A stretch of DNA of 64,000 nt from Noviherbaspirillum suwonense (GTDB lineage: Bacteria > Pseudomonadota > Gammaproteobacteria > Burkholderiales > Burkholderiaceae_D), in contig NZ_FXUL01000003.1 in assembly GCF_900182955.1 (NCBI RefSeq), positions 248,001 through 312,000 on the forward strand. Reading direction: 5' to 3'. A model generated the notes under the pieces. The model did not search any database. It saw only the letters and a list, made by a program, of their open reading frames with translations, and was not told the origin of the DNA. The translations under genes and the position numbers were made by a program. Below are positions 6,185 through 7,914 of the stretch, one piece after another; within the stretch, counting starts at the first letter, position 1; each line of letters opens with the position of its first letter.

Positions 6185-7519
6185 TTAATCGCTCGCGGGC
6201 TCCGGCGCCGCTGCCTGCAATGCCGGCAGCGGATGGTCGGCATGCTGGTGCCGGATGCAGTTGCGTCCTGCTTTCTTGGCTGCGTACAACGACCGGTCGG
6301 CCAGCTTCATCAACTGGTCCACGCCCGTTATCCCAGGCCCCATGCTGGCGACGCCGATGCTGACGGTATAGCCGATCTCGTCGTTGCCGCTGCGCACCCG
6401 CTGGCCTTCGACTGCCACCCTGAATCTTTCCGCCAGCCTGAGCGCGCCGTCAAGGTCGGTCGACGGCAGCAGCGCGGCAAATTCCTCGCCGCCCATCCTT
6501 GCGACGACATCGATCTCCCGCACGTTCGCCGCCAGCGTCAGCGCCAGGTTGCGCAGCACGTCATCGCCGGCCGCATGGCCCCAGGTGTCATTGATGTTCT
6601 TAAAGAAATCGGCATCGATGGCGATCAGCGACAGCGGCCGCGGGAAACGGCGCCAGCGCTCCAGCTCCAGCTCGGCCGCCTCGAAGAAGGTGCGGCGGTT
6701 GGCGATGCCGGTAAGGAAGTCGCAGGCGCTTGCGCGCATCACGCTGTCGCCGGCTTCCCGCTTGTCGGTAATGTCGCGCACGATCAGCGCATAGCCCTTT
6801 TCCTCCTCGGGCATGTCATCGTCCCGCGCGAGGGGCGCGATCATCGTGTTGGCCCAGAACCGGCTGCCGTCGGCCCGTACGCACCAGCCATTGTCCAGGC
6901 TCCAGCCGTTGGCGTCGGCTTCCCGCAGGCGGTCGGCGACGCGGTCGCTGGTAATGGAGCCGGGCGAAAAGAAAAGCGTGAGTTCGCAGCCGGTCACGGT
7001 CCGCTCGGTGTGGCCCGTCACCCGTGCAATGCTCTGGTTCCAGGCTTCGACCCGGCCGCTCTTGTCGAGCGACATCAGCGCATAATCGGTGACGCCGGTC
7101 AGCACCGCATTGAACCAGGCTTCGCTCTGCTTGAGCTGGCGTTCGCGCTTGACCACCTGCGTGATGTCGGTGATGACGGCCATCAGCCGCTTCCCGTCGA
7201 GCCTGAACAGCGAGACCGACAGCATCCGGGCATCCATCTTCCCCGGTATCCCGGCGCTGAGCTGCACCCGCTGGCCCTCGCAGATGGTGCCGTGCGTCGC
7301 CATGAAGTTGTTAGCCATGTTGCGCAGTTCGGGCGCCACCTGCTCGAGCGCGTCGAACAGGTTGTCGAGCCCGCCATGGGAGGACAGCGGCATCAGCAGC
7401 TGCGCGCACAGCGGGTTGAGCATGCCGATGGTTCCATCCGGCGCGAACTGCACCACGCCTACCGGGACCAGGTACAGAAACTGCAGCAGCGCTTCGTACT
7501 CTTCTTCCATCGTGTTCAC
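6185..7519 (-). CDS. PAS-PAS-GGDEF diguanylate cyclase
   Basis: A 444-aa soluble sensor that should make cyclic di-GMP from two GTP. Residues 1-120 form a PAS-like domain, about 130-250 a second PAS with a PAC tail (YALIVRDITDKREAG), and about 275-430 the GGDEF domain. The active-site loop is GGEEF (343-347). An intact RxxD inhibitory site (REID) stands five residues before it, so product inhibition is expected. No EAL domain and no membrane segment are present. The start is GTG 7519, with ATG 7510 an equal alternative; neither has a good ribosome-binding site. The gene lies 14 bases after the PYP-like gene on the same strand, so the two are probably co-transcribed, with the PYP-like protein made first. 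Confidence 0.92.
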   Translation of the reverse strand: MNTMEEEYEALLQFLYLVPVGVVQFAPDGTIGMLNPLCAQLLMPLSSHGGLDNLFDALEQVAPELRNMANNFMATHGTICEGQRVQLSAGIPGKMDARMLSVSLFRLDGKRLMAVITDITQVVKRERQLKQSEAWFNAVLTGVTDYALMSLDKSGRVEAWNQSIARVTGHTERTVTGCELTLFFSPGSITSDRVADRLREADANGWSLDNGWCVRADGSRFWANTMIAPLARDDDMPEEEKGYALIVRDITDKREAGDSVMRASACDFLTGIANRRTFFEAAELELERWRRFPRPLSLIAIDADFFKNINDTWGHAAGDDVLRNLALTLAANVREIDVVARMGGEEFAALLPSTDLDGALRLAERFRVAVEGQRVRSGNDEIGYTVSIGVASMGPGITGVDQLMKLADRSLYAAKKAGRNCIRHQHADHPLPALQAAAPEPASD

Positions 7520-7533
7520 GCCGCGTCCCGCGG

Positions 7534-7914
7534 CTAGGCGCGCTGTACGAGGACGTAGCGCGTGCCGCGTTGCGCGCCGGCCAGCAGGCGCAACTTCACC
7601 TTGATCGGGCGCATGCGCAGCGTCAGCACATAGTCGATGGTGTCGTCCAGCGCCGTGCCCGACTCGGCGGCATCCTCGAAGCGCTGCGCCACCAGGAAGT
7701 TGTTCATGCAGGGCGCAACCAGCGTAAACAGCGGCTGGCCGAGGACGCGCTGCGGCGACAGGCCTGCCGCCTGCGACTCGAACGCGTTGTAATGCGTGAC
7801 GGCGGTTTCGGCGTCGAAGCCGATCACGCCGAAATCGAGTTGGTCTAGCCCCTCTGCCGGCTCGGCATCGATGGCGGAGAGAAGGTCTGGCTGGTTGAAC
7901 GCGAGCTTGCTCAT
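7534..7914 (-). CDS. Photoactive yellow protein-like single PAS domain protein
   Basis: A 126-aa one-domain protein that lines up almost without gaps with the photoactive yellow protein (PYP) of Halorhodospira (125 aa, recalled from memory). Seen directly: LDFGVIGFD, then YNAFE (Tyr42, Glu46), G51, P54, G59, F63 and VAPC (Cys69). Tyr42 and Glu46 hold the p-coumarate phenolate in PYP and Cys69 carries the thioester chromophore; here all three have the same residue numbers. Thr50 and Arg52 of PYP are replaced by Ala and Leu. The C-terminal strands (PIKVKLRLL, RYVLVQR) also match. No tyrosine ammonia-lyase or coumarate-CoA ligase gene lies in the window. It may be a light sensor or a PYP-fold PAS using other chemistry. 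The downstream diguanylate cyclase is the likely partner. Confidence 0.75.
   Translation of the reverse strand: MSKLAFNQPDLLSAIDAEPAEGLDQLDFGVIGFDAETAVTHYNAFESQAAGLSPQRVLGQPLFTLVAPCMNNFLVAQRFEDAAESGTALDDTIDYVLTLRMRPIKVKLRLLAGAQRGTRYVLVQRA

Follow-up and report, generated by a model that had tools for sequence, protein, structure and literature searches.

Genome comparison suggests that a clade C photoactive yellow protein signals to c-di-GMP enzymes through one dedicated docking domain

How a light sensor made of a single domain passes on its signal is a question posed by the photoactive yellow proteins (PYPs). A recent account gives 83% of PYPs as single-domain proteins and names their signalling to partners as an important gap (PMC12826048). 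A locus of the soil bacterium Noviherbaspirillum suwonense bears on this question. It lies in a stretch of 64,000 nucleotides (the window; assembly GCF_900182955.1, contig NZ_FXUL01000003.1, positions 248,001 to 312,000 of the forward strand), where a reading frame with an ATG start on the minus strand (7534..7914) encodes a protein of 126 aa. A PncC-type amidase gene and lysA are located upstream, both on the minus strand, and a consensus scan for a promoter upstream of the PYP gene returned none. A sequence-only reading had proposed that the product carries Tyr42, Glu46 and Cys69 at their PYP residue numbers and that it aligns with PYP almost without gaps. Both proposals are borne out by the reading frame and the alignment, with the motif YNAFE supplying Tyr42 and Glu46 and the motif VAPC supplying Cys69, the expected chromophore attachment site (TGC codon at 7708..7710, minus strand). 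Over 125 aligned positions the protein shares 37 residues (30%) with the PYP of Halorhodospira (H. halophila) and shows a single extra residue after approximately position 87. The reference used was what we take to be the H. halophila PYP sequence, which agrees with the 1gsv row except at position 47, mutated in 1gsv. The exchanges of Thr50 for Ala and Arg52 for Leu, singled out in the sequence-only reading, are both present in the window protein but are not unusual, since Ala50 and Leu52, together with Thr97, represent the family consensus in a set of 984 homologues (PMC12826048). The accompanying remark that true PYPs are rare is likewise out of date.

The window protein is a member of the PYP family and not a generic PAS protein. 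Its sole NCBIfam match is TIGR02373 (photo_yellow), the profile that the sequence-only reading had named for this purpose, at E 3.5e-21 and 75.6 bits, though this is under the equivalog cut-off of 143.05 bits, so that the protein is not filed under that narrow model. Pfam profiles for generic PAS domains score lower, with 25.0 bits for PAS_4 (cut-off 23.1) and 22.4 bits for PAS. Searching the PDB with phmmer returned 1mzu at E 3.7e-15 and H. halophila PYP at about 1e-12, and all 33 sequences listed at E <=1 are PYPs or PYP-derived tags. An AF2 model built on an alignment of 61 sequences (pLDDT 91.6, pTM 0.86) led to a similar outcome in Foldseek, where the top 40 matches are PYPs or PYP-derived tags, with a TM of 0.90 to 2phy as against 0.65 for the first non-PYP PAS domain. 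A tree of 73 rows, comprising 46 clade C copies (the window sequence being L003) and 27 other PYPs including that of H. halophila, places the two sets on the two sides of a single branch with an SH-aLRT of 99; as the sets had been labelled by profile score, and few columns and a short search were involved, the tree confirms this split and does not discover it. That a generic PAS protein should resemble PYP by chance at three residues is barely conceivable and, despite a TIGR02373 score under the cut-off and a PAS_4 score above its own, can be dismissed on the profile scores, PDB matches, Foldseek results and residue conservation, with sequence, fold and tree all putting the protein with PYP and TIGR02373 capturing just 20% of BLAST-detected PYP homologues (PMC9664959).

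The presence of Cys69 is what defines the PYP family in PMC9664959, and the window protein possesses this residue as well as Tyr42 and Glu46. Judged from their sequences, the protein and its relatives fit clade C of that study (Xing, Gumerov, Zhulin 2022), which is equated there with group 6 of an earlier study and is described as occurring mostly in Proteobacteria, especially Burkholderiales, with no characterised members. The published marks of the clade, namely the loss of Phe92, Phe96 and Trp119, the retention of Met100 and the frequent adjacency of GGDEF genes, are all found here in a member of the Burkholderiales, and it is on these marks, not on a reference clade C sequence, that the name rests.

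Conservation within the clade was followed in 294 genomes of the family by means of a protein search without patterns. A PYP match was detected in 58 genomes, belonging to 13 of 44 genera, in counts that are not corrected for relatedness; the PYP count excludes weak matches in G244 (25.7 bits) and G074 (20.8 bits). All 58 genomes possess clade C, 15 also possess a canonical PYP, and a canonical PYP alone occurs in none. Tyr42, Glu46, Cys69, Asn71, Asn72, Tyr94 and Arg99 are invariant among the 62 distinct clade C copies, and the loss of Cys69 in close homologues, which the sequence-only reading had regarded as telling against its proposal, was thus not observed. Position 50 is occupied by Ala (57 copies) or Ser (5), position 52 by Leu (61) or Ile (1), position 92 by Ile, Leu or Val in all 62 and position 96 by Leu in 61, with Phe92, Phe96 and Trp119 of H. 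halophila PYP mostly missing. A wider set of 116 unique copies, each of at least 130 bits, was assembled from the family copies, the 80 loci of a contig scan (retained from 227 relatives) and the loci of an order sample, with canonical PYPs, the G415 copies and a fragment, and L190 in G453 omitted as scoring under 130 bits. Cys69 occurs in all 116, and Tyr42 and Glu46 in 115 each, the exception (L186) being a partial frame; the contig-scan loci had been found by two peptide patterns, one of which includes Cys69, and this biases the Cys69 count of that set, not that of the 62 copies. On plasmids, where 13 records gave a match and 10 were opened at one place each (H5, H11 and H13 being left out), reading the sequences by eye showed that Cys69 and Glu46 are kept in all ten clade C copies, while Phe42 is found in L211 and L212, and position 68 is Gln in five and Val in one. 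Both Phe42 copies, on Caballeronia plasmids, lie beside a canonical PYP with an AMP-binding ligase. In a class sample (190 genomes), five other genomes show a match to the PYP profile; three hold non-C PYPs (84-90 bits), and the weak matches of the remaining two (approximately 27 bits), whose frames bear a GGDEF motif, were taken as generic PAS. A genome of another Burkholderiales family presents four PYP-like matches of 56-65 bits within 3.5 kb (G415:C1:133878-137382).

The sequence-only reading stopped at the ends of the PYP gene and so missed the most informative feature of the locus, which is the N-terminal domain of the gene downstream. This gene (6185..7519, minus strand) starts 14 bases after the PYP stop codon on the same strand and encodes a diguanylate cyclase of 444 aa from a GTG codon, with an ATG located 9 bases further in. 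Its first domain, aa 1-125 (7145..7519, minus strand), is a divergent PAS-like domain, well matched by none of the Pfam models, which is proposed here as a PYP receiver. It is followed by a second, ordinary PAS domain at approximately aa 130-256 (6752..7132, minus strand), identified by NCBIfam and Pfam profiles, and by a GGDEF domain at approximately aa 263-423 (6251..6733, minus strand), identified by profiles and sequence, in which the GGEEF motif is intact and is preceded, five residues before, by an RxxD motif that is presumably the I-site. Among 61 receiver members scanned, no Pfam match was better than E 0.0026 (PAS_4), with two members matching in all, and no PDB sequence matched the domain at E <=10.

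The distribution of this receiver follows that of clade C closely. At a threshold of E 1e-5 it was detected in 59 of the 294 family genomes, comprising 58/58 with clade C and 1/236 without (Fisher p 4e-61, a descriptive value not corrected for descent), and all listed matches reach at least 79.9 bits. In the one genome without clade C (G072), the receiver heads a similar cyclase and no PYP was found in the surrounding stretch fetched. An order sample of 200 genomes showed clade C and the receiver in the same four genomes, two of them shared with the family sample, and no receiver was found in G415 with its four other PYP matches. In the class sample the receiver occurs only in the N. suwonense genome, with none in the three genomes that carry non-C PYPs. 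Canonical PYP loci without clade C nearby gave no receiver in any of 13 fetched stretches (L033, L036, L040, L043, L046, L050, L051 and L078-L083). The genes are also physically linked. Of the 62 family clade C copies, 61 are directly followed by a co-directional receiver, as are 115 of the 116 unique copies, with a median gap of 15 and a maximum of 80 bases; at the one unlinked copy (L054) the contig ends 1 base behind the clade C gene. A receiver is present at nine of the ten plasmid loci opened among the 13 records. On plasmid L207 (CP099603.1) none was detected within 5 kb on either side of clade C; the copy there is the one with Val68, and a convergent 4.1-kb gene for a PAS protein is followed by a BLUF gene beyond.

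What the receiver is joined to varies considerably, the outputs being GGDEF, GGDEF-EAL, HD_5 or histidine kinase (HisKA-HATPase) domains. At least two receiver-bearing frames were counted in 62 of the 80 contig-scan loci (the pair in L156 overlaps and might be a single gene); typically, GGEEF is present in one frame and GGDEF-EAL motifs in the other. In a MAG labelled "Geobacteraceae" (L165:2207-8290), two clade C genes precede receiver-HD_5 and receiver-PAS-HisKA-HATPase genes, and the receiver is also joined to HisKA-HATPase in an "Archangium" MAG (L166) and in a betaproteobacterial MAG (L160); even if these MAGs were misbinned, which is possible, the domain argument would stand. Two receivers occur within a single GGDEF-EAL frame at L058:4816-6030 and L059:5512-6675 (open frames of 998 and 892 aa), and on plasmids L211 and L212 a separate EAL gene, in which no receiver was detected, comes after the receiver-GGDEF gene. 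The second receiver protein of N. suwonense is encoded on another contig (G000:C39:18042-18392; L176:6025-7764) and consists of 580 aa in the order receiver-GGDEF-EAL, and the surrounding sequence fetched contains no PYP. Since its GGDEF motif is degenerate (GSDEF) and its EAL motif is kept (EALVR), this protein is, as far as its motifs indicate, probably a c-di-GMP phosphodiesterase. A second receiver gene on a separate contig is a feature of G000, G015, G055 and G078.

A sensor encoded separately, a receiver heading the enzyme and outputs that differ from one locus to another are most simply read as docking, with the contact changed by light. Taken together, the evidence tips slightly in favour of a dedicated PYP receiver that has co-evolved with clade C and acts as the platform for its docking on diguanylate cyclases, EAL- or HD-type phosphodiesterases and histidine kinases. 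A structural view of the pair was sought at L018, where just one TGA separates the PYP gene from the receiver gene, both being in the same frame, and the chain read through this TGA into the receiver was modelled (P0002, alignment A4). In the model, a linker of low confidence connects the PYP to another domain, whose strands and helices follow the PAS order behind an 18-residue leading helix; the chain has a pLDDT of 88.1, and at a pTM of 0.64 the relative placement of the domains is not confident, so docking was not read from this chain, which neither supports nor refutes it. Foldseek matches over the whole chain include some tandem-PAS proteins, such as PpsR, DosP and NifL-NifA, and a repeat structural comparison was taken up by alignments over the PYP and gives little information about the receiver.

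The receiver might instead sense a signal of its own, or only dimerise, and never bind the PYP, the genes being kept together through one shared response. The absence of a confident contact in the L018 model would agree with this, as would a PAS fold that could hold its own ligand and the retention of the receiver in G072, which has no clade C. Against it, the presence of the receiver tracks clade C genome by genome (58/58 versus 1/236), and does so even in the four genomes, named above, whose second receiver gene is on a separate contig; the 13 canonical PYP loci without clade C nearby show none; and the receiver is kept while the output changes among GGDEF, EAL, HD_5 and kinase. A receiver without PYP binding is, on these grounds, quite unlikely.

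With docking on a dedicated receiver as the preferred reading, the nature of the signal depends on what Cys69 carries. The sequence-only reading had suggested searching the remainder of the genome for the two enzymes that supply the PYP chromophore, and the results were divided. A second, canonical PYP is encoded in the N. suwonense genome (G000:C22:3622-3987, L033; 179.9 bits to TIGR02373), and directly behind it lies a ligase with 332.0 bits to the 4-coumarate-CoA ligase model TIGR02372 (cut-off 334.7), a PYP-type coumarate ligase (pCL); a tyrosine ammonia-lyase (TAL) of the PYP-linked type was not found in this genome. Using the N. suwonense pCL as query at E 1e-35, an orthologue was detected in 36 of the 294 family genomes, distributed as 35/58 with clade C and 1/236 without, the latter (G124) having its pCL at a contig end. 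All 15 genomes with a canonical PYP possess pCL, as do 20 of the 43 that have clade C but no canonical PYP, and the association of pCL with clade C among genomes without canonical PYP has a Fisher p of 1e-17 (descriptive, not corrected for descent). In each of these 20 the pCL is on the same contig as the clade C gene, at a distance of 98-1803 bases, with 15 divergent and five on the same strand, and two of the matches are incomplete or split (G018, G138). At this threshold pCL was not found in 23 of the 58 clade C genomes, including G055 of Noviherbaspirillum. In G236 the receiver-GGDEF frame is split in two, possibly by a frameshift, with pCL downstream (L070:5259-6682).

Some loci bring all these genes together. 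On an Indioceanicola plasmid (L209), pyp, pcl, an aromatic ammonia-lyase gene, clade C and receiver-GGDEF follow each other in the same direction, with overlaps of 1 base between neighbours among the last four genes. The order in a Methyloversatilis MAG (L167) is lyase, pCL, clade C, receiver-GGDEF and receiver-GGDEF-EAL, and in L213-L216 it is clade C, receiver-GGDEF and AMP-binding ligase. An aromatic ammonia-lyase is linked to clade C in L167, L209 and L054 (G086), the frame in L054 being interrupted by a stop, while in two MAGs (L034, L035) clade C is divergent from a row of lyase, canonical PYP and pCL. The best PDB match of the L034 lyase is 2o78/2o6y, listed as "putative histidine ammonia-lyase", which we take to be the R. 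sphaeroides tyrosine ammonia-lyase. The pyp-linked lyases of L034, L167 and L209 score below the cut-off of every NCBIfam lyase model, whether HutH or TAL, so that we infer their substrate. A search of four Noviherbaspirillum genomes found a single aromatic ammonia-lyase in each and none of the PYP type, that of N. suwonense being closest to histidine ammonia-lyase; with such an inventory, p-coumarate would need an external source or a promiscuous enzyme. Counting lyases genome-wide was set aside as evidence, with 111 of the 294 genomes matching the L034 lyase at E 1e-90 and only seven having the match beside a pyp gene (G003, G012, G053, G071, G086, G148 and G279). Linkage of PYP, pCL and TAL in general is already in print (PMC9664959, PMC12826048).

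The ligand, the photocycle, physical docking and the direction of the effect are matters that we infer from these computed patterns of membership, conservation, linkage, co-occurrence and output. Overall we consider it probable that the clade C protein carries p-coumarate and acts as a free-standing blue-light sensor that docks on the receiver of c-di-GMP enzymes. The ligand on Cys69 would most likely be thioester-bound p-coumarate or a closely related cinnamate, with Tyr42 and Glu46 hydrogen-bonding the chromophore, and the acyl-CoA donor would be produced by the coumarate ligase whose gene adjoins that of the canonical PYP at another place in the N. suwonense genome. Blue light would isomerise the chromophore and alter the protein surface, and the PYP would dock on the dedicated PAS-like receiver at the N terminus of its partners, which would be the co-directional receiver-PAS-GGDEF cyclase and the unlinked receiver-GGDEF-EAL protein. 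The occurrence of the same receiver on both suggests joint control of c-di-GMP, such that a single sensor could shift its synthesis and breakdown together. In Noviherbaspirillum, with no PYP-type lyase found in the four genomes searched, formation of the holoprotein might further depend on plant-derived p-coumarate, making the protein a detector of light and plant material.

An alternative is that clade C represents a PYP fold that has moved past light sensing, with Cys69 bearing another acyl or thiol ligand, such as a different cinnamate or a redox mark, that is read by the receiver. This would be consistent with the 23 clade C genomes in which pCL is missing, with the lyase inventory of Noviherbaspirillum, with Phe42 in two plasmid copies and with Phe92, Phe96 and Trp119 being replaced in most cases, as also reported in PMC9664959. 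We nevertheless consider it unlikely, given that Tyr42 and Glu46, which hold the p-coumarate phenolate in the H. halophila protein, vary no more than Cys69 does (62/62 in the family set), that linkage with pCL is repeated and extends to an aromatic ammonia-lyase in three loci, one of them with the stop-interrupted frame, and that Y42F is known in approximately 9% of PYP homologues (PMC9664959). Redox sensing, which the sequence-only reading had offered as a fallback, is not needed as a main reading, because the family copies show no more variation at Tyr42 and Glu46 than at Cys69.

The receiver, in tracking one PYP clade, turns the signalling gap into a binding question on a fragment of 125 aa. 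Docking on it would, if true, explain in general terms how clade C proteins, as PYPs of one domain, hand their signal to partners, in the form of a two-part, non-fused blue-light switch for kinases and for enzymes that make or break c-di-GMP, a biofilm messenger. Clade C and its GGDEF neighbourhood are already in print (PMC9664959, PMC12826048); what is new here is the PAS-like receiver that heads the next gene, tracks clade C genome by genome and is attached to varied outputs. A literature search found no mention of a shared PYP receiver or partner domain, and a supplementary mention is possible.

Compared with clade C as described in PMC9664959, the proteins reported here agree in their occurrence in Burkholderiales, the residues kept and lost and the adjoining GGDEF genes. 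They agree even in the misnaming as phosphonate transporter reported there for newly found PYPs, which recurs on plasmids L207, L208, L211, L212 and L214 (H1, H2, H6, H7 and H9). The Results and Discussion of that study give the GGDEF neighbourhood but no shared N-terminal receiver, genome-level co-occurrence or attachment to kinase or HD outputs. The canonical PYP of H. halophila resembles the window protein in fold and in the three chromophore residues, and its association with pCL and TAL is paralleled by the linkage of clade C to pCL and, in three loci, to a lyase. It differs in the low identity noted above, with Ala50, Leu52, Leu62, Met70, Asn71, Asn72, Thr97 and Arg99 (H. halophila numbering) in the window protein, and in that the pCL of N. 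suwonense sits with the other, canonical PYP. In Idiomarina loihiensis, for which light-dependent biofilm formation has been reported, a free-standing PYP likewise adjoins a GGDEF gene (PMC9664959, PMC12826048), although that PYP belongs to clade A. PYP input to c-di-GMP enzymes is also described for the Ppd-type fusion of PYP, bacteriophytochrome and GGDEF/EAL in Thermochromatium tepidum (PMC9664959, PMC12826048), where input and output form one chain, whereas at the present locus they are separate proteins and a PAS-like receiver stands in place of the fusion.
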